Assembly (NCBI RefSeq): GCF_014646215.1
Contig: NZ_BMNA01000001.1
Location: 286,442-350,441 of the forward strand
Direction of reading: 5' to 3'
DNA length: 64,000 nt
Source of the DNA: Nakamurella endophytica
Lineage (GTDB): Bacteria > Actinomycetota > Actinomycetes > Mycobacteriales > Nakamurellaceae
The notes beneath the pieces were generated by a model, which saw nothing but the letters and a program-made list of their open reading frames with translations, had not been told where the DNA came from and ran no database searches. A program made the translations under genes and the position numbers. This document shows positions 14,892 through 52,989 of the stretch, piece after piece. Position 1 is the stretch's first letter. Every line of letters begins with the position of its first letter.

Positions 14892-14907
14892 GGGTTGCAT
14901 GCAGAGA

Positions 14908-14998
14908 GCGACGTTCCTGCGCCGGCATGATCCGGATCAGGTTCGACGGTCAGGGACTCCGTGTCCCTCTCTCAGCCCGGCGCACCGGACTCCCGTGT
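14908..14998 (-). promoter_or_regulatory. TPP riboswitch (THI element)
   Basis: The minus strand carries the conserved core of the thi box: GGGCTGAGAG, then a variable stem (GGGACACGGAGTCCC), then GAACCTGATCCGGATCATG and CCGGCGCAGGAACG. These match the P2/J2-3 CUGAGA and P4/P5 ACCUGAUCNGGAUNAUGCC signatures. It lies 45 nt upstream of thiB, so binding of thiamine diphosphate should switch off the transporter operon. A -10-like TAGACT (15007-15012) sits about 10 nt upstream of it, so the transcript would begin almost at the aptamer. Confidence 0.95.
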
Positions 14999-15006
14999 CG
15001 CCGCCG

Positions 15007-40641: not shown

Positions 40642-41317
40642 CAGCACCACCACGACCACCGCCCCCGGGGCGCCCAGCGGTCCGATCGGCGGGAACAGCG
40701 CCGCACCGGCGACCGCGGCGCCGCCGCGGCCGGCCCGTCCCGTTCCCGCGGCCGTGCCGGCGGTCGCCGATGCCGCGGTCGCCACCGTGCGGACGCCGGC
40801 AGGGCCGTTCACCGTCGTCGCGGACGTCGGCGGCAGAGGACCGGCCACCGTGCTGGCCGCCGGCTGGACCGGCGACGTGGCGACGCTGCTGCCGTTGATC
40901 ACCGCGCGGGTCCGGCCGCTGCGGTGGCAGCAGGCCTCCCGGATCGACGGGGTCACCGACGCGGTGCTCGCCTACCACGACGGCGATCTGGCCGCGGTCG
41001 ACCGGGTCCCGGTCCGGCAGGCCGCCGGTCCGTACCTGGACCACGCGCTGGCGGTCCTGCGCACGGTGCCGGCCGGAGCCCCGCTGAGCTACGCCGCGTT
41101 CGCCGTGCTGACCGGGCGGCCGGCGGCGGTCCGGGCCGCGGCTTCGGCCTGCGCCCGGAACGCGGCGGCGCTGTTCGTCCCGTGCCATCGGATCCTGCGC
41201 ACCGACGGCACTCTCGGCGGATTCCGGTGGGGCCTGCCGGTCAAGCGGTGGCTGCTCGACCACGAGTCCGGCGATCAGCGCGAGGCGGCCCTGTTCTCCG
41301 GCAGCGCCGCGTCGTAG
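40622..41317 (+). CDS. ogt: Methylated-DNA-protein-cysteine methyltransferase
   Basis: 231 residues from ATG 40622, overlapping alkA by 20 bp; GTG 40631 is an alternative start. The active-site motif VPCHRIL is at about residues 186-192 and is preceded by the HTH-like helix region LSYAAFAVLTGRPAAVRAA. It transfers the alkyl group from O6-alkylguanine to its Cys and is used once. The N-terminal 50 residues are a Thr/Ala/Pro-rich tail not found in most Ogt proteins. Its 3' end overlaps the opposite-strand chelatase gene by 43 bp. Confidence 0.93.
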   Translation: MCPVPADSTTTTTAPGAPSGPIGGNSAAPATAAPPRPARPVPAAVPAVADAAVATVRTPAGPFTVVADVGGRGPATVLAAGWTGDVATLLPLITARVRPLRWQQASRIDGVTDAVLAYHDGDLAAVDRVPVRQAAGPYLDHALAVLRTVPAGAPLSYAAFAVLTGRPAAVRAAASACARNAAALFVPCHRILRTDGTLGGFRWGLPVKRWLLDHESGDQREAALFSGSAAS

Positions 41318-42060
41318 CGCTCGAGAACCAGTCCGGCCAGCAGGGTCCCGAGCGGCTCGGCGAACGGAACGCCGGCGGCGGCCGGGTGGTCGCGGACCTG
41401 GTCGAGCAGCAGGCCGGGCGCGAGGAACAACGGCACCACGGCCACCGGCCCCTGACCGCGGGCCTGCTCCAGCGCGGGTACCGCCCGCGGCTCCGACGTG
41501 GCGAACACCGCCCGCACCGGCGCCGGCCGGTGTGTGGACCACTGCTCGGCGAGCGCCTGCACCGCCGCGTTGGCGGCCGGGACGGACGAGCCGACGGCCA
41601 GCAGCAGGACGGGCACCTCGTCACCGATGCCGGCTCGTTCGGCGGCGCGCCGCAGTGCCCGCAGGACCGGCGCGCCCAGCCCGAGGATGTCCGCCCGGAC
41701 CAGGCAGGTCCCGGTCTCCCGCTCGGCCCGCTCCACCGCCTCCGGCGCGTCGACCCGGGCGTGGAACGCCGACGAGAACAGCAGCGGGACGACCACGGCG
41801 CGATCGGCGTCCAGCGCCCGGACCGCCGTGCCCAGGTCCGGGTCGGTGAGGTCGAGGAACGCCGGCTCGGCCTGCAGGCCGGGACGGGCGTCGGCGACGG
41901 CGCGCAGCAGCGCCGCGATCGCGGCACCGGCGCGCGGATCGCGGCTGCCGTGCGCCAGACCGATCAACGGCAGCGGAGGTCCGGCCGTGCCGGTCCCTTC
42001 CGCGGTCGCCTCGCGAACCGCCCCGGCGCCCGTCAGGTCGCCCGTCACGTCGCCCGTCAC
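41275..42060 (-). CDS. CbiX/SirB-type sirohydrochlorin chelatase
   Basis: 261 residues from GTG 42060, overlapping the permease stop by GTGA. LIGLAHGSRDPRAGAAIAAL carries the N-terminal catalytic His, and PVLLLAVGSSVPAANAAVQ and VAVVPLFLAPGLLLDQV give the second half of the two-fold CbiX structure. Here it should insert iron into sirohydrochlorin to make siroheme for the sulfite reductase at the head of the same operon. The first 12 residues (VTGDVTGDLTGA) come from three 12-bp tandem repeats, so the start could be one or two repeats later. Confidence 0.9.
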   Translation of the reverse strand: MTGDVTGDLTGAGAVREATAEGTGTAGPPLPLIGLAHGSRDPRAGAAIAALLRAVADARPGLQAEPAFLDLTDPDLGTAVRALDADRAVVVPLLFSSAFHARVDAPEAVERAERETGTCLVRADILGLGAPVLRALRRAAERAGIGDEVPVLLLAVGSSVPAANAAVQALAEQWSTHRPAPVRAVFATSEPRAVPALEQARGQGPVAVVPLFLAPGLLLDQVRDHPAAAGVPFAEPLGTLLAGLVLERYDAALPENRAASR

Positions 42061-43028
42061 GTCGCGGGCGCGAGCCCACGCACCCGCAGGATGTGGCGCT
42101 CCACCGGTCGGAAGAACAGCAGCTCGATGCCGATGCCGACCAGGAAGATCAACACCAGCGCGGTGTACATGGTCGGCGGGTCGCCGAGCGAGCGACCCTG
42201 GTCCATCAGCTGCCCGAGACCCAGCCCCAGCTTGCTCGAGGTGGCGATCAGTTCCGCCGCCATCAACGAACGCCACGAGAACGCCCAGCCCTGGCGGAGT
42301 CCCGCCAGGTAGCCGGGGAGCGCGGCAGGCACCAGGACGTCCTTCATCAGGCCCACCGGCCCCAGGCCCAGCACCCGTCCCACCCGGGTGAGCAGCGGCG
42401 GCACCTGGTCCATGCCGGAGATCAACCCGTTGGCGATGGACGGCACGGCTCCCAGCAGCACGACGGCGTAGATGGCACCGTCGGTCAACCCGAACCACAG
42501 CACCGCCATCGGCACCCACGAGACCGACGGCAGGGACTGCAGTCCGGTGAGCAGCGGGCCGACGGACGCCCGCAGCCACCGGAACCGGAACAGCAGCAGC
42601 CCGACCACCGTGCCCAGGACGATGGAGGCCGCGAAGCCGACCAGCCCGCGGCTGACGCTCGTCCAGATCACCGAGAACGCCGACCCGTCGGACACCATGC
42701 CGGCGAACGTGTCCCACACGCTCGCCGGTGACGGCAGCACATACTCCGGCTTCCACCGCTGCGTGTAGGCGACCTGCCAGAGGCCCAGCAGCACCACCAG
42801 GGCGATGACCGGCGGGTAGGCACCGGACAGGAACCGTCGCCAGGCCGGCGGCCGGGTGTCCGTCGTGCGTTCCAGCGCGTCCAGACCCGCGCCGACGGCG
42901 GCGGTGTCCTCGCGCTCGACCCGCTCGGCCGGGCCCGCCGCGACCAGGACAGGCCCGGCCGGCCGGTACCCCGCCGTGCCGACCGGTCCGGCGGTGTCGA
43001 CCGGCCGGAGGTCCTCAGGCCTCGGCAT
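42057..43028 (-). CDS. Sulfonate/nitrate-type ABC transporter permease (SsuC-like)
   Basis: 323 residues. A 60-residue hydrophilic N-terminus precedes six helices. The EAA loop is RVLGLGPVGLMKDVLVPAAL, followed by GLRQGWAFSWRSLMAAELIA, the standard motif of the SsuC/TauC/NrtB group. It overlaps the ATPase gene by 14 bp. Within a cys operon it most likely imports sulfonate or sulfate-ester sulfur sources. Confidence 0.92.
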   Translation of the reverse strand: MPRPEDLRPVDTAGPVGTAGYRPAGPVLVAAGPAERVEREDTAAVGAGLDALERTTDTRPPAWRRFLSGAYPPVIALVVLLGLWQVAYTQRWKPEYVLPSPASVWDTFAGMVSDGSAFSVIWTSVSRGLVGFAASIVLGTVVGLLLFRFRWLRASVGPLLTGLQSLPSVSWVPMAVLWFGLTDGAIYAVVLLGAVPSIANGLISGMDQVPPLLTRVGRVLGLGPVGLMKDVLVPAALPGYLAGLRQGWAFSWRSLMAAELIATSSKLGLGLGQLMDQGRSLGDPPTMYTALVLIFLVGIGIELLFFRPVERHILRVRGLAPAT

Positions 43029-43854
43029 GGCTGGCGATCTCCTCCCGCAAGCGGACGGTGATCTGCGCGGCCAGCGCCGACACCTCCGTGTGCTCGATCG
43101 TGCGCGGGCCCTGGATCCGGACCGGCCACTCCCCCACGACCCGCCCCGGCCGCGACGACAGCAGCACCACCCGCTGACCCAGCCGCACCGCCTCGCGCAC
43201 GTTGTGCGTGACGAAGACGACGCTGCGGCCGGTGTCCTTCCAGACGCGGGTCAGCTCGTCGTGCAGGACGTCGCGGGTGATCGCATCCAACGCCGCGAAC
43301 GGCTCGTCCATCAGGAGGACCTGACCGCCCTGGGCGAGTGCCCGGGCCAGTGCGACGCGCTGCCGCTGGCCGCCGGACAGCTCGTGCACCCGCCGGTCCG
43401 CCGTGCCCGAGAGCCGCACCAGCGCGAGCAGTTCCGCCACCCGGGCCGGCCGGTCCCGGCGGGCGACGCCGGCCCGCTTGAGTGCCAGCGAGATGTTGCC
43501 GCCGGCCGTCAGCCACGGGAACAGCGCGGCCTCCTGGAACATCAGCGCGGGGCGGCCGGACACCCGGACGGTGCCGGAGGTCGGCCGGTCGAGCCCCGCG
43601 ACGAGGTTGAGCAGCGTGCTCTTGCCGCAGCCGGACGCACCGAGCAGGCAGACGAACTCCCCGGGTGCCACGGTGAGATCGATCGAATCCAGGGCGTGCA
43701 CGGTGCTGCCGCCGGGACCGCGGAACACCTTGCTGACGCCGTCGATCTGCACCCCGGCGGCACCAAGCGGTCGGACCGGCAGCGGTGGGACGACGCGCGG
43801 GTCGTCGTCCGGAGACGGCGCGGCGGCCGAGTCGTCCTGCAGCGTGACGGTCAC
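43015..43854 (-). CDS. Sulfonate/nitrate-type ABC transporter ATPase (SsuB-like)
   Basis: 279 residues from GTG 43854, with GGAG overlapping the stop codon of the preceding gene. Walker A GASGCGKST, Q-loop LMFQEAALFPWLT, signature [17 protein letters not shown], Walker B VLLMDEPFAALD and H-loop THNVREAVRL, the last being typical of SsuB/TauB. It energises the transporter made with the neighbouring permease and lipoprotein. Confidence 0.93.
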   Translation of the reverse strand: MTVTLQDDSAAAPSPDDDPRVVPPLPVRPLGAAGVQIDGVSKVFRGPGGSTVHALDSIDLTVAPGEFVCLLGASGCGKSTLLNLVAGLDRPTSGTVRVSGRPALMFQEAALFPWLTAGGNISLALKRAGVARRDRPARVAELLALVRLSGTADRRVHELSGGQRQRVALARALAQGGQVLLMDEPFAALDAITRDVLHDELTRVWKDTGRSVVFVTHNVREAVRLGQRVVLLSSRPGRVVGEWPVRIQGPRTIEHTEVSALAAQITVRLREEIASHAEA

Positions 43855-43856
43855 GG

Positions 43857-44993
43857 CTACTCCTGTCCCAGCGAGGCCGCGGAGACGGCGGGCTTGCCGG
43901 CCGCGGCGAGAACCTTGTTGAGCAACCGGAGGTCGAAGATCCCCTGGATGTCCGGCGCGGTCTTGAGCAGACCGGCGGTGACCGCGTGCTCGCCGGACGC
44001 CTGGTACGTGGAGGCCATCGGATCCACCGTCACCTGGATGTTCTTGAAGGACGCGGCCATCACCGCGTCCGACAGCTTCTTGCCGGTCAGCTGGCCGATC
44101 GCGTCGTTGATCTTCGCCTGCGCCGCGGTCGGGTCCTGGGCGATGACGCCCGCCTCGGCCACCTCGCCGGTCAGCAGCGCCTGGACGGTGTCCGGATGCG
44201 CGTCCAGGTACCCCTTGGCGACGACGACGATCGTGGTGGGGAACCGCTTCTGGGGCCACAGGGTGGCCTCGTCGACGAGGACCTTGGCGCCCGCGTCGAT
44301 CACCAGGCGGGACGCCCACGGCTCGGGCAGCCAGCCGCCGTCGACCTGGCCGGACCGGAACAGGTCCAGGGTCTGCGAGTTGTCCTGGTTCACCACGTCG
44401 ACGTCGCTGCCGCCGGTGGTCTGGGTCTTCAGCCCGTTCTGCGCCAGGTACGTCCGCAGCGCGACGTCCTGCGTCCCGCCCAGCTGCGGTGTGGCGATGG
44501 TGGTGCCCTTGAGCTGGCCGGCCGAGGTGATCGACGGCTTGACGACGAGCGAGGCCCCGTTGTCGGTGGCTCCGGCGACGATCCGCAGCGACTCGCCCTT
44601 GGACTTGGCGTAGGCGTTGATCGCCGGGCTGGGGCCGAGGAAGGCGGCGTCGATGGCTCCCGCGTTGAGCGCCTCGATCGCCGCGGGACCGGCGTTGAAG
44701 ACCTGCGTCTCGAGCTTGGTGCTGCCCAGCGCCTTCTGGAAGCCCCCGTCCGCGACACCGAGCACGGCCGCGGCGTGGGTGACGTTGGCGAAGTACCCCA
44801 GCCGCAGGGTGGCGGCCGCAGTGCCGCCGGCGGCACCGGAAGCGGCGGGTGCCGCGCTGCTGGAGCCGGCAGAGGACGAACCGGAGCCGCAGCCGGCCAG
44901 CAGCACCGCGGCGGCCGCGGCGGTGGCGACCGCGGCGAGCCGGTTTGTGCTCCGGCGGTGCCGGGAGGGACGGCGGGATGGTGCTGCGAGCAT
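43857..44993 (-). CDS. Sulfonate-type ABC transporter substrate-binding lipoprotein (SsuA-like)
   Basis: 378 residues. Signal peptide ending in lipobox LLAGC at about residues 31-35, a Ser/Ala/Gly linker, then the NMT1/SsuA fold: LRLGYFANVTHAAAVLGVAD, FLGPSPAINAYAKSKGESL, IATPQLGGTQDVALRTYL and GGWLPEPWASRLV. These match actinomycete proteins encoded between cysN and ssuB. It is 34 nt after cysN, so it is part of the cys operon. Taurine, alkanesulfonates or nitrate are conceivable ligands; the operon favours a sulfur compound. Confidence 0.92.
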   Translation of the reverse strand: MLAAPSRRPSRHRRSTNRLAAVATAAAAAVLLAGCGSGSSSAGSSSAAPAASGAAGGTAAATLRLGYFANVTHAAAVLGVADGGFQKALGSTKLETQVFNAGPAAIEALNAGAIDAAFLGPSPAINAYAKSKGESLRIVAGATDNGASLVVKPSITSAGQLKGTTIATPQLGGTQDVALRTYLAQNGLKTQTTGGSDVDVVNQDNSQTLDLFRSGQVDGGWLPEPWASRLVIDAGAKVLVDEATLWPQKRFPTTIVVVAKGYLDAHPDTVQALLTGEVAEAGVIAQDPTAAQAKINDAIGQLTGKKLSDAVMAASFKNIQVTVDPMASTYQASGEHAVTAGLLKTAPDIQGIFDLRLLNKVLAAAGKPAVSAASLGQE

Positions 44994-45027: not shown

Positions 45028-46692
45028 TCAGGGACCGGGGGTGGACAGGGTGTCGGGGTCGGTGAGGGGACCGCGGTGGTTCGCGGGCCCGGCCGCGCGT
45101 TCGGCGGCCGGGCGGTCGCCGGGACATCGGTCCTCGTCCCGCGCGGCGGGGACGACGACCGGCGTCACCGTGACCGTGCCGTCCTTCTGCACCACGCCGC
45201 CGGGCCGCGGCCGCAACGCCGAGCGGCGGTCGCCGGCCATCCCGGCGGCCAGGGTCGTCCCGTCCGACGGATCGACGACCAGCAGCGCCCCGACGGTTCC
45301 GCCGGGACGGAAGTCCTCGACGGGCAACGGCGCGGCCAGTCGGAACCGGACCTGGCCGATGTCGTTGAGTCGCAGGGCGTCCGCGGCGGCGTCGGTGGCC
45401 AGGGTGTCGATGTCCAACCGGTGCTCGATGGCCGAGACCAGGACCGGTGCGGCCGTGGTGCCGTAGCGGAGCAGGGCCCGCAGCCCCGGTCGCAGCGGCT
45501 TGTCGGCCAGGTGGGCGACGGTCGCGGTGAACTCGGTGACCGGCGGCGGCGCGTCGTGGACGCCGGCGATCAGGTCGCCGCGGGCGATGTCGACGTCGTC
45601 GGCCAGCAGCAGCACCACCGAGTCCCCGGCGCCGGCCTCCGGCAGCGAACCGTCGGCCGTGTCGATCCCGGTCACCTTGGTGTCCCGGCCGGACGGCAGC
45701 ACGACCACCCGGTCGCCGGCGCGGACGGTGCCTGCGGCGATCCGCCCGGCGTAGCCGCGGTAGTCCGGCAGGTCCGCCGTCCGCGGCCGGATGACGTACT
45801 GCACCGGGAACCGCAGCCCGGCCGGGTCGGCCGCAGGCTGCGCGCCGGCCGGGCCGCCGGCGTCCTCGGCGGCGGGATCGCCGTCCAGGGACACGGTCTC
45901 CAGGTGCTCGAGGACGCTGGGTCCGGTGTACCAGCGGATCCGCTCGGACCGGGTCACCACGTTGTCCCCGTGCAGCGCGGAGATCGGGATGGCGGTCACC
46001 TCGCCGATCCCGAGTTCCCGGCAGTAGACGTCGAACTCGGCGGCGATGCGGTCGAACACGTCCTCGTCGAAGTCGACGAGGTCGATCTTGTTGACCGCCA
46101 GCAGCAGGTGCGGCACCCCGACGAGCGCGGCCACCGCCGCGTGCCGCCGGGTCTGCGACACGACGCCGGTCCGGGCGTCGACCAGGATGACCACCAGGTC
46201 GGCGGTGGACGCACCGGTCACCGTGTTGCGGGTGTACTGCTCGTGGCCGGGAGTGTCGGCGAGGATGAAGCTGCGCCGGGGGGTGGCGAAGTAGCGGTAC
46301 GCGACGTCGATGGTGATGCCCTGTTCGCGTTCCGCCCGCAGCCCGTCGACGAGCAGGGACAGATCGGCGGTCGCCAGCCCGCGGGCCTGCGACGTGCGCT
46401 CCACGGCGTCCAGCTGGTCGGCCAGCACGGACTTCGAGTCGTGCAGCAACCGCCCGACGAGGGTGGACTTGCCGTCGTCGACGGAGCCGGCGGTGGCGAA
46501 CCGGAGCAACCCGTGCCGCTCCTCGGCCGAGCCGGGATCGCCATCGATATCCGCACCGCCGTCGGCGGCGTGCGCGGCGAACTGCGCGGCGTCGAGCGAC
46601 GACATCCCGTCGGCGACACCGAGGACGTCCGTCGTGGTGTCGGTCGCCGTGTCCGGGCCTGCTGCCGCGTCCCGGGTCGTGGTGGCTGCCAC
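45028..46692 (-). CDS. cysN: Sulfate adenylyltransferase subunit 1 (GTPase)
   Basis: 554 residues from GTG 46692, overlapping the cysD stop by one base (TAGTG). GTPase motifs GSVDDGKSTLVGRLLHD, DTPGHEQYTRNTVTGA and NKIDLVDFDED are as in CysN. EF-Tu-like domains II and III follow, with no fused APS-kinase domain, consistent with the separate cysC. GTP hydrolysis drives APS formation by CysD. The N-terminal 50 residues (Thr/Asp-rich) and the last 50 are extra to the core. Confidence 0.96.
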   Translation of the reverse strand: MAATTTRDAAAGPDTATDTTTDVLGVADGMSSLDAAQFAAHAADGGADIDGDPGSAEERHGLLRFATAGSVDDGKSTLVGRLLHDSKSVLADQLDAVERTSQARGLATADLSLLVDGLRAEREQGITIDVAYRYFATPRRSFILADTPGHEQYTRNTVTGASTADLVVILVDARTGVVSQTRRHAAVAALVGVPHLLLAVNKIDLVDFDEDVFDRIAAEFDVYCRELGIGEVTAIPISALHGDNVVTRSERIRWYTGPSVLEHLETVSLDGDPAAEDAGGPAGAQPAADPAGLRFPVQYVIRPRTADLPDYRGYAGRIAAGTVRAGDRVVVLPSGRDTKVTGIDTADGSLPEAGAGDSVVLLLADDVDIARGDLIAGVHDAPPPVTEFTATVAHLADKPLRPGLRALLRYGTTAAPVLVSAIEHRLDIDTLATDAAADALRLNDIGQVRFRLAAPLPVEDFRPGGTVGALLVVDPSDGTTLAAGMAGDRRSALRPRPGGVVQKDGTVTVTPVVVPAARDEDRCPGDRPAAERAAGPANHRGPLTDPDTLSTPGP

Positions 46693-47717
46693 TAGAAGTA
46701 CCCCTCCCGCTTCCGGTCCTCCATGGCCGCCTCGGTGAGCCGGTCGTCCGCCCGGGTCGCCCCGCGCTCGGTGATCCGGGTGGCCCGGATCTCCTCGATC
46801 ACCGCGGCGACGTCGGCCGCGGCGGACTCGACGGCGCCAGTGCAGGACATGTCGCCGACGGTCCGGTAGCGGACGCTGCGACGCTCCACCGTCTCGCCCG
46901 GCCGGGGTCCGCCCCAGTCGCCCGGGGTGAGCCACATGCCGTCCCGGCGGAACACCGGACGCTCGTGGGCGTAGTAGATCTCGGGCAGCTCGATGCCCTC
47001 GGCGCGGATGTAGGACCAGACGTCCAGCTCGGTCCAGTTGGACAGCGGGAAGACGCGCACGTGCTCGCCGGGCGCGTGGCGGCCGTTGTACAGGTCCCAC
47101 AGCTCCGGTCGCTGGCGGCGTGGATCCCAGCCCCCGAAGGCGTCCCGCAGCGAGAAGATCCGCTCCTTGGCCCTGGCCTTCTCCTCGTCCCGCCGGGCGC
47201 CGCCGATCACCGCGTCGAAGCGCTGCTCGACGATGGTGTCGACCAGCGGCACGGTCTGCAGCGGGTTGCGGGTGCCGTCCGGTCGTTCGGCGAGCCGGCC
47301 GTCGTCGATCCAGTCCTGCACCGCGGCCACGATCAGCCGCGCGCCGGCGCGCTGCACGGCGCGGTCCCGGAACTCGAGGACCTCCGGGAAGTTGTGGCCG
47401 GTGTCCACGTGCAGCAGCACGAACGGGACCGGCGCCGGGTGGAAGGCCTTGCGCGCCAGGTGCAGCACGACGACGGAGTCCTTGCCGCCGGAGAACAGCA
47501 CGACCGGCCGGTCGAACTGGCCGGCGACCTCGCGCAGGATGTGCACCGCCTCGGACTCGAGGTCGTGCAGGTGGCCGCGCCGACGGCCACCGGCGGTCCG
47601 GGCCGTCGGCGTGCTGGCGGGCGGCGTGCTGACGGACGGCGTGGTCGCGGACGGCGTGGTGGCGGACGCCGTGGTGGTGGGTGGTGTGGTGGCCGGCGCT
47701 GTGGTGGCGGTCGTCAC
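46692..47717 (-). CDS. cysD: Sulfate adenylyltransferase subunit 2
   Basis: 341 residues from GTG 47717, overlapping cysC by GTGA. The PP-loop VVLFSGGKDSVVVLHLARKA, HVDTGHNFPEVLEFRD and VFPLSNWTELDVWSYI are diagnostic, and the C-terminus DRLTEAAMEDRKREGYF is invariant in CysD. The family starts near RRRGHLHDLESEAVHIL. Here some 43 residues of Thr/Ala/Pro/Ser precede it, written in short degenerate tandem repeats (47610-47717). The enzyme adenylates sulfate to APS with CysN. Confidence 0.96.
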   Translation of the reverse strand: MTTATTAPATTPPTTTASATTPSATTPSVSTPPASTPTARTAGGRRRGHLHDLESEAVHILREVAGQFDRPVVLFSGGKDSVVVLHLARKAFHPAPVPFVLLHVDTGHNFPEVLEFRDRAVQRAGARLIVAAVQDWIDDGRLAERPDGTRNPLQTVPLVDTIVEQRFDAVIGGARRDEEKARAKERIFSLRDAFGGWDPRRQRPELWDLYNGRHAPGEHVRVFPLSNWTELDVWSYIRAEGIELPEIYYAHERPVFRRDGMWLTPGDWGGPRPGETVERRSVRYRTVGDMSCTGAVESAAADVAAVIEEIRATRITERGATRADDRLTEAAMEDRKREGYF

Positions 47718-48370
47718 GAGGGTTCTCCGTCCGCGGAGGTGTGGGCCGGTGGGTGCGCCACGGTGCCGGCGGGCGCTGCGGCGGCAGCCCCGTCGGCGTC
47801 CCCGGCCACCAGGTCCAGCAGTGCGGCGACCGACTGGTCCAGGGACAGCCGGCCGGTGTCCAGTCGCAGGTCCGGCGTCGGCGGCACCTCGTACGGGTCG
47901 TCCACCCCGGTCATCGACCGGATCTCGCCGCGGAGCGCCTTGGCGTACAGTCCCTTCACGTCGCGCCCGGCGCAGACCTCGAACGAGGTGGACAGGTGCA
48001 CCAGGAGCATGCGGGTGCCGTGCTCCGCGTGGTGCCGGCGGACCAGCTCCCTGGCCCGCTCGTACGGGGCGATGACCGGGACCAGCACCGTGACCCCGTG
48101 CCGGGCGAGCAGCTCGGCCACGAAACCGATGCGGTCGACGTGGGTGTCGCGGTCGGCGCGGCTGAACCCGAGTCCGGCGGACAGGTGCGTGCGCACCTCG
48201 TCGCCGTCGAGCACCTCGACGTCGGTGCCCCGTCGGCGCAGCTCGTCGGCCACCGCCAGGGCGAGGGTCGTCTTGCCGGCGCTGGGCAGGCCGGACAGCC
48301 AGAGCGTCACCCCGCGTCGCGCGCCCGTGGTGGCCTCCGTCCCGGGACGGGTGGCAGCGGCGGCGGTCAC
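47714..48370 (-). CDS. cysC: Adenylylsulfate kinase
   Basis: 218 residues from GTG 48370, overlapping cysH by GTGA. Walker A GLPSAGKTT, LDGDEVRTHLSAGLGFSRAD, RIGFVAELLARHG and CAGRDVKGLYAKALRGEI are CysC signatures. It phosphorylates APS to PAPS. Because the operon also has an APS-type reductase, PAPS may serve sulfotransferases rather than reduction, as in other actinomycetes. The C-terminal 30 residues are a low-complexity tail. Confidence 0.95.
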   Translation of the reverse strand: MTAAAATRPGTEATTGARRGVTLWLSGLPSAGKTTLALAVADELRRRGTDVEVLDGDEVRTHLSAGLGFSRADRDTHVDRIGFVAELLARHGVTVLVPVIAPYERARELVRRHHAEHGTRMLLVHLSTSFEVCAGRDVKGLYAKALRGEIRSMTGVDDPYEVPPTPDLRLDTGRLSLDQSVAALLDLVAGDADGAAAAAPAGTVAHPPAHTSADGEPS

Positions 48371-49071
48371 GTGTGCAGCCCGCACTCGGTCTTGGCCCGA
48401 CCGGCCCACCGGCCGGAGCGTGGGTCGTCACCGGGCCGCACCGCACGCGTGCACGGTTCGCAGCCGATCGACGGGTACTCCGCGGACAGCAAGGGGTTGA
48501 CCAGCACGCCGTGTGCCGAGATGTACCGGTCCACGTCGTCGTCGGTCCACGCCGCCAGCGGCGCGATCTTGACCCGCTGCCGGCGTTCGTCGAACGCGAC
48601 GACGGGCGTCGCGGCCCTGGACGCCGACTCGGCCCGCCGCAGTCCGGTGGCCCACGCCTCGTAGTCCTCCAGGGCCCGGTTCATCGGCGCCACCTTGCGC
48701 AGCGCGCAGCACAGGTCAGGATCCCGGGCGTACAGGGCGCTGCCGTAGCGGGCGTCCTGCTCGGCGACGGTCTGCAGCGGCAGCAGCCGGCGCAGGCGCA
48801 CCGGGTACACCGCCTCCACGGCATCGGCCGTGCCGAGGGTCTCGACGAAGTGGTAGCCGGTGTCCAGGAACAGCACGTCGAGGCCCGGCACCACCCGGGA
48901 TGCCAGGTGCGCCAGCACGGTGTCCTGCATGGACGCCGACACGGCCAGCCCCGCGCCGAACTCGTCGGCCGCCCACCGCAGGATCTCCTCGGCCGGGGCC
49001 CCTTCCAGCCGGACCGCCGCGGCCTCCGCGAGCCCGCGGAGCTCGGCCGGGCTGCGCACCGTGCCGATCAC
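48367..49071 (-). CDS. cysH: Adenylylsulfate (APS) reductase
   Basis: 234 residues. SASMQDTVLAHLASRV is the modified PP-loop, LDTGYHF follows, then LCCALRKV and CEPCTRAV, the Cys pairs that bind a 4Fe-4S cluster and mark APS rather than PAPS reductases. The redox-active Cys lies in the C-terminal ECGLHT. It reduces APS to sulfite for the sulfite reductase upstream. It overlaps the zinc-ribbon gene by ATGA. Confidence 0.96.
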   Translation of the reverse strand: MIGTVRSPAELRGLAEAAAVRLEGAPAEEILRWAADEFGAGLAVSASMQDTVLAHLASRVVPGLDVLFLDTGYHFVETLGTADAVEAVYPVRLRRLLPLQTVAEQDARYGSALYARDPDLCCALRKVAPMNRALEDYEAWATGLRRAESASRAATPVVAFDERRQRVKIAPLAAWTDDDVDRYISAHGVLVNPLLSAEYPSIGCEPCTRAVRPGDDPRSGRWAGRAKTECGLHT

Positions 49072-49271
49072 GCCGACACGTCCGGTCCGGTGGAGCCCGC
49101 CGCCGGGACGCCGACGGGATCGCCGCCGCGGCCGGCCACGCCGATGAACCGCACCGCGAAGACGCGGTAGCAGTCACCGCACCGCCAGGCACCGTGCGAG
49201 TCCTCGTGCGGCCACAGGTTCGTCTCGCCGCAGTACGGGCAGTACTGGGCGGGAGCGCGGTTCTCGGTCAT
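49068..49271 (-). CDS. Small zinc-ribbon protein of the sulfite-reductase operon
   Basis: 67 residues from ATG 49271. Two CxxC pairs, CPYCGETNLWPHED and CGDCYRVF, make a zinc ribbon. The same small gene lies between sulfite reductase and cysH in Streptomyces and other actinomycetes. Its role is not established; assistance to sulfite reductase or a redox role is a guess. It overlaps the sulfite reductase stop region by one base and cysH by ATGA. Confidence 0.82.
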   Translation of the reverse strand: MTENRAPAQYCPYCGETNLWPHEDSHGAWRCGDCYRVFAVRFIGVAGRGGDPVGVPAAGSTGPDVSA

Positions 49272-51070
49272 CACCGCAGCGCCTCCTCGTCGGACCGGGC
49301 GACCCACTGGGCGAACCGCTCCCCCGGCTCCCGGGAGGACTGGAAGCTGCGCACGACGCGCTCCACGTAGTCCGCGAGCTCGTCGCCGGTGACCTTGTGG
49401 CCCCGCACCTTCCGGCCGAAACCCGCGTCCAGGCCGAGGCCTCCGCCCAGGTGCACCTGGAAGCCGTCCACCTGCCGCCCCGCGGTGTCGGTGACGATCA
49501 TGCCCTTGAGCCCGATGTCGGCGATCTGCGTGCGTGCGCAGGCGTTGGGGCAGCCGTTGATGTTGATGGTGAGCGGCACGTCCAGGTCGCCGATGCGCCG
49601 CTCGAGCTCGTCGACCAGCGCCATGCCGCGCGCCTTGGTCTCGACGATCGCCAGCTTGCAGAACTCGATGCCCGTGCACGCCATCATGTTCCGCCGGAAG
49701 GTGGACGGCCGGGTGTGCAGGCCGAGGGCCTCCAGCCCCTCGACGAGCGAATCGACTCGGTCGGCCGCGATGTCCAGGACGACCAGCCCCTGATCGGTGG
49801 TGGTGCGCACGCGCTTGGACCCGTGCGCCTCGGCCAGGTCGGCCAGTGCCGTCAGCAGGGTTCCGCTGACCCGGCCGACGGTCGGCGTCACGCCGACGTA
49901 GAAGCGGCCGTCGCGCTGCCGGTGCACGCCGACGTGGTCCCGGGGGCCGTCCGGGACGGGCGGGGCGGGGCCGTCGGTGAGGGCCCGTCCCAGGTACCGG
50001 GTCTCGAGCACCTCGCGGAAGCGGGCGATACCCCAGTCGGCCACCAGGAACTTGAGCCGGGCCCGGTTGCGCAGCCGCCGGTAGCCGAAGTCCCGGAAGA
50101 TCGACACCACGCCGGCCCAGATGTCCGGCACCTCGTCGAGGGTCGAGAACACGCCCAGCCGCTGGCCGAGCATCGGGTTGGTGGACAGCCCGCCGCCGAC
50201 CCAGACGTCGAAACCCGGGCCGAGTTCCGGATGCACGACGCCGACGAACGCCACGTCGGCGATCTCGTGGGCGACGTCCTGCCGAGGCGAACCGGAGATC
50301 GAGGTCTTGAACTTGCGCGGCAGGTTGGAGAACTCCTCGCTGCCGATGTAGCGCCGCTGGATCTCCTCGATGGCCGGTGTGCCGTCGAGGATCTCGTCCT
50401 CGGCGATGCCCGCCAGGGGCGAGCCGAGGATGACCCGCGGGGTGTCGCCGCACGCCTCGGCGGTGCTGAGGCCCACCGCCTCCAGCTCCTGCCAGATGTC
50501 GGGCACGTCCTCGATCCGCACCCAGTGCAGCTGCACGTTCTGCCGGTCGGTCAGGTCGGCGGTGTCGCGGCCGTAGCGGGTGGACACGGTGCCGATGGCG
50601 CGCAGCGCGTCGGTGGTCAGCAGGCCGCCGTCCAGCCGGACGCGGAGCATGAAGAACTTGTCCTCGAGCTCCTCCGGCTCGAGGACGGCGGTGCGGCCGC
50701 CGTCGATGCCCGGTGCCCGCTGGGTGTACAGGCCCCACCAGCGGAACCGCCCCCGCAGGTCACCGGGGTCGATCCCGTCGAACCCGGTGTGACGGTAGAC
50801 GTTCTCGATGCGCGCCCGGCAGTGCAGGCCGTCGTCGTCCCGCTTCATCCGCTCGTTGGGGTTCAGCGGCTCCCGGTGGCCGAGCGCCCACTGCCCCTGG
50901 CCGCGGGCCGCCTGCGGGCGCCGCTGCGGGCGGCCCTGCGGAGCGGCGGACGACGCCGCCGCCGCACCGGTCGCCGGAGCGGCGACCTCGGCCGCAGCGC
51001 CGGCAGCAGCACGCACGGAAGGGTGGGTCGGGACAGCAGGCACGGGCATCCTCGGGTGTCGATGGGGCAC
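49271..51070 (-). CDS. Ferredoxin-dependent sulfite (nitrite-type) reductase
   Basis: About 599 residues from GTG 51070, or 592 from ATG 51049; the true start is unclear. Two ferredoxin-like half-domains and two siroheme/4Fe-4S domains are present. LTDRQNVQLHWVRIEDVPD marks the first half. The cluster ligands are CTGIEFCKLA and NGCPNACARTQ (C-x5-C and C-x3-C). It reduces sulfite to sulfide by six electrons. The leading position in a cys operon, with cysH and a siroheme chelatase, fixes sulfite rather than nitrite as substrate. The first 65 residues are Ala/Pro/Gln-rich and not part of the fold. Confidence 0.94.
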   Translation of the reverse strand: MPHRHPRMPVPAVPTHPSVRAAAGAAAEVAAPATGAAAASSAAPQGRPQRRPQAARGQGQWALGHREPLNPNERMKRDDDGLHCRARIENVYRHTGFDGIDPGDLRGRFRWWGLYTQRAPGIDGGRTAVLEPEELEDKFFMLRVRLDGGLLTTDALRAIGTVSTRYGRDTADLTDRQNVQLHWVRIEDVPDIWQELEAVGLSTAEACGDTPRVILGSPLAGIAEDEILDGTPAIEEIQRRYIGSEEFSNLPRKFKTSISGSPRQDVAHEIADVAFVGVVHPELGPGFDVWVGGGLSTNPMLGQRLGVFSTLDEVPDIWAGVVSIFRDFGYRRLRNRARLKFLVADWGIARFREVLETRYLGRALTDGPAPPVPDGPRDHVGVHRQRDGRFYVGVTPTVGRVSGTLLTALADLAEAHGSKRVRTTTDQGLVVLDIAADRVDSLVEGLEALGLHTRPSTFRRNMMACTGIEFCKLAIVETKARGMALVDELERRIGDLDVPLTININGCPNACARTQIADIGLKGMIVTDTAGRQVDGFQVHLGGGLGLDAGFGRKVRGHKVTGDELADYVERVVRSFQSSREPGERFAQWVARSDEEALR

Positions 51071-51140
51071 CCCGGGGCACGAACGTCGAACGGGACCGTG
51101 CCAGGGGGCGCGGCACCACCCGGGCGGGCGGTGGCGGGCG

Positions 51141-51224
51141 TCAGCGGCCGGCGCAACACACGGCGCTGGCGACGCGCACGAGGTCGACCTCGCGGCGGCC
51201 CACCAACGGCACCCGTGCAGACAT
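51141..51224 (-). CDS. Cysteine-responsive leader peptide of the cys operon
   Basis: A 27-codon frame, ATG 51224 to TGA 51141, beginning MSARVPLVGRREVDLVRVAS and ending with two consecutive Cys codons and AGR. Actinomycete sulfur genes are often preceded by leader peptides with the pattern PL-SRRHVDLxRVASAxC, and in Mycobacterium smegmatis a poly-Cys upstream frame mediates cysteine attenuation. A TAGGCT -10 box (51237-51232) ends 7 nt before the ATG, so the transcript should start at the leader codon itself. Stalling on scarce Cys-tRNA would raise expression of the sulfite reductase gene 71 nt downstream. Confidence 0.85.
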   Translation of the reverse strand: MSARVPLVGRREVDLVRVASAVCCAGR

Positions 51225-51231
51225 GCGGGTC

Positions 51232-51237
51232 AGCCTA
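51232..51237 (-). promoter_or_regulatory. Candidate -10 box of the cys operon
   Basis: TAGGCT on the minus strand, 7 nt before the leader-peptide ATG. No -35 is evident in the 190-nt divergent gap. Confidence 0.45.
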
Positions 51238-51414
51238 GCGCCCGCGGCGACGTACCACCTACTGGGAAGGCTGCTCATCATGTGGGACGCCGGTCACCCG
51301 CCGACGGCGCGGCGCCCCCGCCGACCTGCCGGGCACGTCCGACGGGACCACCCGCGCCGGGGCCCCGACCGCGCCACGACGGGGACTGTCGGTGCCCTCG
51401 GCCATGCTCTGCCC

Positions 51415-52989
51415 GTGACCACTGCCCAGCTGTTCGTCGGGGCCCTGCTGCTGGCCGTCGGGCTGGCCGTCGGGCTGGCACTGGGCCTGGTCCTGGGCGC
51501 GATGCGCCGGCGGGCCGGCTCCCGTCCCGCGGCCACCGGGGCCGAGGTGGCGGCCCTGCTCGCTCCGGCCGCCTCGGCCCTGGACCGGGTGGAGCAGCAG
51601 CTGCGGGAGGTCGAACGCAGCCGCGCCGGCGCGTACGCCGGACTGTCGCAGCAGGTGGCGTCGCTGCAGCAGGTGTCCGCGGAGGTGGGCCGGCAGGCCG
51701 GAGCGCTGGCCGGGGCGCTCCGCTCGCCGTCGGTGCGGGGGCGGTGGGGGGAGCTGCAGCTGCAGCGCATCGTCGAGCTGGCCGGCATGGTCGAGCACTG
51801 CGACTTCGACCGCCAGGTCCGCGGTGCGGACGCGCTCGGCGGCGGGGTCCGACCGGACCTGGTCGTGCGGCTGGCCGGCGGGCGCAGCATCCCGGTGGAC
51901 GCCAAGGTGCCGTTGGAGGCGTGGCTCGCCCTGCAGCAGGGGTCGGCCGGCCCGCCGGGCGTAGAACGGGCACGACTGCAGGCGCACGCCCGCGCGCTCC
52001 GCGCGCACGTCGACGCGCTGGCCGCCAAGGCCTACTGGGAGGCGTTCTCGCCGGCGCCGGAGTTCGTCGTGCTGTTCGTCCCCGGCGAGGCCCTGCTCGA
52101 CGCGGCGTTGCAGGCGGACCCCGGGCTGGCCGAGCACGCCTTCGAGCAGCGGGTGGTCATCGCGACGCCGACGACGTTGATCGCCCTGCTCCGGACGGTC
52201 GCGTTCGGGTGGCGCCAGGAGCGGCTGGCGGAGTCGGCGGAGGAGATCCTGCTGCTCGGCCGCGACCTGCATCGCCGCCTCGCCACGGTCGGCGGGCACC
52301 TGACCGCGCTGGGACGGTCGCTGGACCGCGCGGTGCAGGCCTACAACGCCGCGATGGGCTCCGTGCAGAGCCGGGTGATGGTGACGGCCCGGCGGCTGTC
52401 GGACCTGGGAGCCGGCGGCGACCCGCTGCCGCCCCTCGACCCGCTCGCCAGCACGGTGCGGGATCCGGACGTCGACCGGTGGCGGCGGGACGCCCCGGAC
52501 CCCGGCGAAGCGGAGCGCCCCCGTGCGGTACCGGACGAGGCGGTCCCCGGCGGTGACGAGCTCGACGGTGACGGTGACGAGCACCGGGGGGCCAGGGCCG
52601 GGGCCGGGGCCGGGGCCGGGGCCGGGGCCGGGGCCGGGGCCGGGGCCGGGGCCGGGACGACCCTCCGGTCGGGGACGGGGAGGCGGGGTCGGGACCGCGG
52701 GGAGCCGCCCCCGGACGTCCTCCGTTCCGCGCCGGTTCCACCGCTCGACGCGGCCGCCGAGTGGGACGAACGGTACGGGCGCGCAGCGGTCGGTACCCAC
52801 CCCGCTCGGGCCGGACGGCGCGTCGGGCAGCGAGGGGCCGCGACCGGCACGGACGATGCCCGGCTTGCCGGCGCGGGCGGCGGGACGGAGCCACCACGGC
52901 ATGGGCAGCGCTCGGGTCCCGGCGGAGCCGCCCACCCTGACCCACCGCCCGCGACTCACGGGTTCGGCACGCCCGGACCGCTACCGTGA
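51415..52989 (+). CDS. rmuC: DNA recombination protein RmuC homologue
   Basis: 524 residues from GTG 51415 (CATGCT ends 6 nt upstream). One N-terminal membrane helix, a coiled coil (about 50-100: LDRVEQQLREVERSRAGAYA) and the RmuC nuclease-like core: VRGRWGELQLQRIVELAGM, RPDLVVRLAGGRSIPVDAKV, YWEAFSPAPEFVVLFVPGE and IATPTTLIALLRTVAFGW. RmuC proteins limit inversions and process DNA. The core ends near residue 350. The remaining 170 residues are a disordered tail with a Gly-Ala run coded by ten GGGCCG units (52595-52654). Confidence 0.92.
   Translation: MTTAQLFVGALLLAVGLAVGLALGLVLGAMRRRAGSRPAATGAEVAALLAPAASALDRVEQQLREVERSRAGAYAGLSQQVASLQQVSAEVGRQAGALAGALRSPSVRGRWGELQLQRIVELAGMVEHCDFDRQVRGADALGGGVRPDLVVRLAGGRSIPVDAKVPLEAWLALQQGSAGPPGVERARLQAHARALRAHVDALAAKAYWEAFSPAPEFVVLFVPGEALLDAALQADPGLAEHAFEQRVVIATPTTLIALLRTVAFGWRQERLAESAEEILLLGRDLHRRLATVGGHLTALGRSLDRAVQAYNAAMGSVQSRVMVTARRLSDLGAGGDPLPPLDPLASTVRDPDVDRWRRDAPDPGEAERPRAVPDEAVPGGDELDGDGDEHRGARAGAGAGAGAGAGAGAGAGAGTTLRSGTGRRGRDRGEPPPDVLRSAPVPPLDAAAEWDERYGRAAVGTHPARAGRRVGQRGAATGTDDARLAGAGGGTEPPRHGQRSGPGGAAHPDPPPATHGFGTPGPLP
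52595..52654 (+). repeat. Hexanucleotide microsatellite (GGGCCG)10
   Basis: Ten perfect 6-bp units inside the rmuC coding tail, coding for alternating Gly and Ala. Changes in unit number would keep the frame, so length variation between strains is expected. Confidence 0.95.

Follow-up and report, generated by a model that had tools for sequence, protein, structure and literature searches.

A candidate cysteine-sensing leader peptide upstream of a sulfur gene cluster in Nakamurella endophytica

Introduction

Candidate leader peptides of cys operons were proposed for Mycobacterium, Propionibacterium, and Bifidobacterium by Seliverstov in 2005; the available text of that study (PMC1262725) describes short ORFs with runs of Cys codons near the stop and no terminator, and it suggests a role for Rho. 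For M. smegmatis, the accessible portions of PMC9094748 and PMC13236596 cite a case that responds to cysteine, which the second of them calls translation attenuation. In the uORFC-8-2 motif before cysS of Rhodobacterales, the cysteine codons of an upstream ORF (uORF) are the proposed sensor; in the part of PMC8632094 used here, UGC dominates these codons and a U run is consistent with an intrinsic terminator. In M. tuberculosis, according to the excerpt of PMC11260477 at hand, a B12 riboswitch and a translated uORF act on one mRNA before metE and ppe2.

Here we describe a short ORF in a 64,000-nt stretch of Nakamurella endophytica DNA (the window, meaning the whole stretch analyzed). The ORF shares with the 2005 candidates its small size, Cys codons near the stop, and lack of a terminator, but in place of Cys runs it has one conserved UGU and one further Cys codon. 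Set against the Rhodobacterales cysS uORF, the actinobacterial leaders compared below are dominated by UGU, and the window leader has no terminator-like site behind it. Judged by its sequence, the ORF truly belongs to an actinobacterial leader-peptide family that has been named before; its kind is already known, since it matches NCBIfam NF042934 and such peptides had been put forward for cys operons in 2005. The window thus adds one member to a named family, and our comparison adds the presence of a leader at most sulfite reductase loci of the order, the UGU codon, a fixed register, and a tandem arrangement with the SAM-IV riboswitch.

Results and Discussion

The leader ORF

The leader ORF, as read from the sequence and the list of ORFs, runs on the minus strand from an ATG at 51224 to a TGA stop at 51141. 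It lies upstream of a sulfite reductase gene, on the same strand and 97 nt before it.

51141..51224, minus strand: leader ORF, 27 codons, MSARVPLVGRREVDLVRVASAVCCAGR followed by the stop; NF042934, 31.2 bits against a cut-off of 27
51232..51237, minus strand: -10-like hexamer TAGGCT, 7 nt before the leader ATG (51224-51222), from the sequence and genus comparison
51156..51158, minus strand: TGT codon of conserved Cys23, nine codons after Asp14, the proposed stall site, from comparison of anchored leaders
51153..51155, minus strand: second Cys codon, TGC (Cys24), absent in some relatives, from the sequence and comparison

The match to NF042934 (cis_reg_atten, "putative leader peptide") had an E value of 1.2e-7 in an hmmscan of NCBIfam, and the same ORF scored 29.4 bits in a genome-wide search; "short ORF upstream of a sulfur or cysteine gene" is our own reading of this model and not model text. 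The window leader has Glu before VDL where most relatives have His, and Glu was found there in all 9 sulfite reductase leaders of the genus. A longer ORF of 46 codons, starting at an ATG at 51281, was rejected because the conserved -10 hexamer would fall within it.

A preliminary description of this DNA had placed a 27-codon frame ending in RVASAVCC before sulfite reductase. The frame and its position stand, but RVASAVCC is followed by AGR and is not the very end. The -10 box that it put 7 nt ahead of the ATG is indeed there, as the minus strand reads TAGGCT-GACCCGC-ATG (TAGGCT at 51237-51232, ATG at 51224), and its assignment of the ORF to the actinomycete sulfur leader-peptide pattern is borne out by the NF042934 score and by comparison with relatives. 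The likeness that it drew to M. smegmatis holds in part. The polycysteine ORFs Ms5788A (NF042933) and Ms4527A (NF042936) resemble the window leader in their leaderless layout, in carrying Cys codons close to the end, and in having cysteine genes downstream; however, the window leader has two Cys codons and no polycysteine tract, and it scored 18.2 and 23.2 bits, respectively, under a cut-off of 45. The mycobacterial polycysteine leaderless ORFs were reportedly the subject of an experimental study by Canestrari in 2020.

The downstream gene cluster

Ten same-strand genes, from sulfite reductase through a CbiX-type chelatase (51043 to 41275), lie downstream of the leader.

51049..51053, minus strand: GAGGA, probable Shine-Dalgarno sequence of sulfite reductase (AAGGA or GAGGA in 8 other genus loci)
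49271..51043, minus strand: ferredoxin-type nitrite/sulfite reductase, start GTG 51043 by comparison (PF01077, PF03460)
49068..49271, minus strand: 67-aa Cys-rich small ORF without a Pfam match
48367..49071, minus strand: phosphoadenylyl/adenylyl-sulfate reductase, CysH (PF01507, NF002537)
47714..48409, minus strand: adenylylsulfate kinase, start approximate (PF01583)
46692..47594, minus strand: sulfate adenylyltransferase subunit CysD, start approximate (TIGR02039, PF01507)
45028..46695, minus strand: sulfate adenylyltransferase subunit CysN, start approximate (TIGR02034, PF00009)
43857..44993, minus strand: sulfonate-type ABC substrate-binding protein (TIGR01728)
43015..43848, minus strand: ABC transporter ATPase, start approximate (PF00005)
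42057..43028, minus strand: ABC transporter permease (PF00528)
41275..42096, minus strand: CbiX-type chelatase, start approximate (PF01903)

It is plausible from orientation and spacing that these genes form one transcript; of the ten-gene sulfur operon named in the preliminary description, the ten same-strand genes were found as stated, and the single transcript is a plausible reading of these two properties. For sulfite reductase, GTG 51043 is the preferred start over ATG 51049 because the 8 other leader loci of the genus have AAGGA or GAGGA and then an in-frame GTG (once ATG). Its closest relative among named genomes was the enzyme of Nakamurella silvestris (locus L011), at 77% in the best segment, although this comparison may leave out records close to the window. 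The ATG of the 67-aa ORF overlaps the stop of the sulfite reductase gene before it, CysH follows, and the ORF contains CPYC and CGDC pairs.

Spread of the family

Leader matches were present in 16 of the 17 genomes of the family (56 matches at an E value of 0.01 or better); across the order, 110 of 121 genomes had at least one at an E value of 0.001, covering 43 of its 49 genera. The 14 control genomes gave zero leader matches at these thresholds (0.01 in the family search, 0.001 in the order search); at an E value of 10, matches appeared in 10 of the 14, all below the cut-off. In the genus, family members also precede genes for rhodanese, sulfotransferase, TauE, a luciferase-type monooxygenase, and transporters.

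We located sulfite reductase loci across the order with a 187-residue piece of the protein, which was found at 103 places in 101 of the 121 genomes, and 101 of the 103 were read. An HMM built from the 56 genus leaders, and so not independent for the genus, detected a leader (score of at least 9) before sulfite reductase in 94 of these 101 loci. The seven without a detectable leader were L132, L174, L181, L182, L200, L204, and L216; at L174, the contig ends 49 nt upstream. When 80 oriented loci were searched on the opposite strand, 19 scored at least 28 and the other 61 scored at most 5, which suggests that those 19 have a sulfur gene pointing the other way and preceded by a second leader. A separate pattern search of 32 sulfite reductase loci in named genomes found a leader in 13 (from Streptomyces, Nocardioides, Frankiaceae, Modestobacter, and others; at least three, L011, L033, and L038, match contigs of the order set in length) and none in 19. 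A looser recheck of 18 of these 19 found no clear leader; L018 and L039 show Cys-containing frames that could not be placed.

Family members elsewhere in the genome and behind SAM-IV

In the N. endophytica genome, two matches exceeded the cut-off and one below it was also accepted, while five weaker ones (at most 13.4 bits) were left aside. The member on contig 14, MGPLLTSRRAVDLVRVGSALCRLGLRAVPSV (31.9 bits), precedes a rhodanese-type protein. The member on contig 4, MVHPGPAFGTAADRRTCTYRTHVDLQRVCSALCPEPAPSR (22.7 bits), has a SAM-IV riboswitch (91.4 bits) upstream of it and is followed by a 348-aa ORF without a Pfam match and then by a cysteine-dioxygenase-type gene. This tandem is outside the window (L010, 6137-5869, minus strand), with SAM-IV at 206024-206136 and the leader core at 205892-205933, a gap of 91 nt.

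Across the 17 family genomes, SAM-IV (RF00634) had 79 matches. A SAM-IV match stood upstream of 21 of the 56 leader matches on the same strand within 400 nt, one of them, at 295 nt, doubtful; the other 20, including the contig 4 tandem, lie at 33 to 138 nt, measured from where the aptamer ends to where the HMM match begins, and come from 13 of the 17 genomes. Since candidate starts, several of them behind purine-rich Shine-Dalgarno-like stretches, occur between SAM-IV and the leader core, leaders in these tandems need not be leaderless. Nine tandems were also counted by eye in five genomes of other families (two in G017, three in G044, two in G093, and one each in G099 and G033), within 21 hand-picked genomes of the 57 in the order that carry SAM-IV outside the genus. 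Among the literature matches listed, no paper joined SAM-IV with a leader peptide or uORF, which says little about what is in print. These loci may resemble the M. tuberculosis pairing of B12 riboswitch and uORF, which differs in its ligand and for which the accessible part of PMC11260477 states no role for cysteine codons.

Leaderless layout

The arrangement of TANNNT, 7 nt, and ATG or GTG was found at 9 of the 9 genus sulfite reductase loci with a leader. This strict test failed outside the family (2 of 85 loci; 11 of 94 overall). A relaxed hexamer, nAnnnT, at 6 to 7 nt before the chosen start was present in 79 of 92 leaders (8 of 9 in the genus and 71 of 83 elsewhere), compared to 23 of 538 out-of-frame ATG or GTG triplets nearby; this pattern was chosen after viewing the sequences, and 2 of the 94 leaders had no assigned start. 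In 40 of the 83 leaders outside the genus, nAnnnT stands behind TGTG. A leaderless window ORF, with transcription starting at or next to its ATG, is supported by this comparison.

A conserved peptide and a UGU codon

We anchored the leaders on an invariant Asp, which was possible for 93 of 94. Counted from this residue, Arg at -4 was kept in 92 of the 93, Asp itself in 93, Arg at +3 in 89, Val at +4 in 81, Ser at +6 in 80, and Cys at +9 in 92. The leader core is V-D-L-x-R-V-x-S-A-x-C. Because these residues are kept and yet the codons used for Arg, Val, Leu, and Ala differ among leaders, the pattern points to selection on the leader peptide. The codon of Ser at +6 counts against a pure peptide reading, since it is AGC in 75 of 80 leaders, whereas AGC makes up 141 of the 662 sulfite reductase Ser codons; a single synonymous step does not, however, lead from AGC to TCN.

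The codon of Cys at +9 was TGT in 84 of 92 leaders. By comparison, the sulfite reductase stretches of the same loci have 181 Cys codons, of which 9 are TGT (Fisher P = 8e-50, with shared descent uncorrected), and 22 chosen ORFs of the window have 3 TGT among 56. Other two-fold codons in the leaders ended in T in 64 of 362 cases, of which Asp contributed 37 of 103; GAT was raised in the order-set leaders at this rate, compared to 107 of 1,625 Asp codons in the sulfite reductases. In the named genomes, each of the 13 leaders found ahead of sulfite reductase had TGT for the conserved Cys, and the first C-terminal Cys was TGT in 49 of the 56 genus leader matches; family f14 was mixed, with 6 TGT and 8 TGC. 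The base after the last Cys codon was C or T in 85 of 94 leaders and never A. Codons that end in U and are followed by a pyrimidine are expected to be decoded slowly, and a single tRNA is expected to read both Cys codons.

The spacer and RNA structure

51044..51140, minus strand: 97-nt spacer, C-rich and G-poor, without a terminator-like site (C/G skew of +0.21 over the first 85 nt; terminator scan, 0)

The composition of this spacer is widely shared. C exceeded G in 81 of 83 comparable spacers (mean C, 0.44; mean G, 0.285) and in 42 of 83 upstream control stretches, and the skew upstream of six sulfite reductases that lack a leader, with starts placed roughly, was -0.02 to +0.14. A C-rich spacer fits Rho loading but may also be a merely unstructured 5' UTR.

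The scan found 0 terminator-like sites in 50900-51420, and alifold returned no consensus helix in the spacers of the 9 genus loci. Modeled accessibility of the Shine-Dalgarno sequence over 94 loci averaged 0.403 behind each locus's own leader and 0.413 behind leaders of other families (P = 0.44), rising to 0.444 in the stalled state, in which the upstream RNA was removed from the model (stalled versus full RNA, P = 4e-6); this rise is partly trivial because the folded RNA is shorter. For the window, the corresponding values were 0.35, 0.41, and 0.50. Native spacers masked the Shine-Dalgarno sequence no more than shuffled ones (0.439 and 0.430; 85 loci), and the Cys region paired with its own spacer no better than controls (-21.9 and -21.5 kcal/mol; P = 0.28; 93 loci), although folding models of this type leave room for such masking. 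The search for alternative stems between 51070 and 51141 that the preliminary description had proposed therefore came back empty, with no terminator-like site, no consensus spacer helix, and no excess pairing between leader and Shine-Dalgarno sequence.

Inside the leader, alifold placed a helix, GAGGTCGACCTC, across the 9 genus loci. We do not claim this hairpin because no covariation between its V/I and D codons was seen among 129 distinct leaders, in which GTC occurred with GAC in 42 and with GAT in 27, and ATC with GAC in 17 and with GAT in 13.

How the leader may act

The best explanation of this locus, and in our judgment a probable one, is that the leaderless NF042934-family uORF acts in cis as a cysteine sensor. 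Leaders of the family probably turn sulfur genes up when cysteine is short, and cysteine-limited stalling at the UGU codon is likely. Transcription would start at or next to the ATG, as the comparison supports, and the ribosome would therefore load directly onto the leader. When charged tRNA-Cys is scarce, the ribosome would pause at the fixed UGU codon and, stalled there, keep the operon on; with ample cysteine it would reach the stop 5 codons beyond UGU, and expression would fall. The absence of a detected leader from 7 of 101 order loci and 19 of 32 named-genome loci counts against this sensor, as does the cysteine-dioxygenase-type gene behind the third member in the genome, for which induction by shortage is less obvious.

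As for what relays the stall, we lean slightly toward Rho-dependent termination in the spacer, a relay of the TnaC type, without holding it to be probable in its own right, because neither a terminator nor a helix masking the Shine-Dalgarno sequence was found and because the spacer is C-rich and G-poor. Less likely, but a serious contender, is translation attenuation, in which leader or spacer RNA would fold over the sulfite reductase Shine-Dalgarno sequence and a stalled ribosome would open it. The available text of PMC13236596 describes the M. smegmatis cysteine genes in this way, which counts against our lean toward Rho, and the modeled gain in accessibility on stalling, in the window and over the 94 loci, agrees with it; against it, that gain is partly the trivial one noted above, and cognate leaders, native spacers, and Cys-region pairing all showed no excess over controls. 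Classical transcription attenuation by an intrinsic terminator and antiterminator has general leader-peptide precedent, such as the Rhodobacterales cysS uORF in the portion of PMC8632094 cited above, but the empty terminator scan and the helix-free spacers of the genus loci make it very improbable here.

Two further readings dispense with cysteine sensing. The leader could be a ribosome loading platform that acts through translational coupling only; a leaderless start could load ribosomes, and a proposal exists that leader genes increase the translation of the genes behind them (PMC4833913, in the part available). We consider this unlikely, as the distance from stop to start (97 nt here and 97 to 126 nt in the 9 genus loci) is long for reinitiation and the fixed Cys with its TGT codon would be left unexplained. 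From the shortness of the ORF and its place between divergent genes (RmuC begins at 51415 on the plus strand), it could be argued that the frame arose by chance or has decayed and serves no function; given the NF042934 match and the occurrence of the family in 43 of the order's 49 genera, this is hardly credible.

A wider reading of the family

In the comparison, one codon and one register of the peptide stand out as the likely sensor. A wider reading, which we offer tentatively and regard as rather doubtful when taken as a whole, is that the leader does more than count codons and senses cysteine with the help of its nascent chain, tuned through UGU and joined in some loci to SAM-IV as a two-input switch. 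Under this joint reading, R-x-[HE]-V-D-L-x-R-V-x-S-A would sit in the exit tunnel when the Cys codon occupies the A site and would make the ribosome stall more readily. The register would be fixed, with Asp nine codons before Cys, and the Cys codon would be tuned to the slow, wobble-read UGU with a pyrimidine next. The leader behind SAM-IV, seen in relatives and once in the N. endophytica genome, would make a two-input RNA switch for SAM and cysteine. If the peptide sequence does matter, a regulator that is very common among actinobacteria would turn out to be an arrest peptide responding to amino acid shortage, and loci with SAM-IV and a leader would be natural two-input sulfur switches.

Two other features of the window were noted. 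A GGGGCC-type repeat at 52590-52660 (plus strand) lies inside the RmuC-type frame and encodes an Ala-Gly run, and a TPP riboswitch was found at 14896-15006 (minus strand; 62.6 bits).
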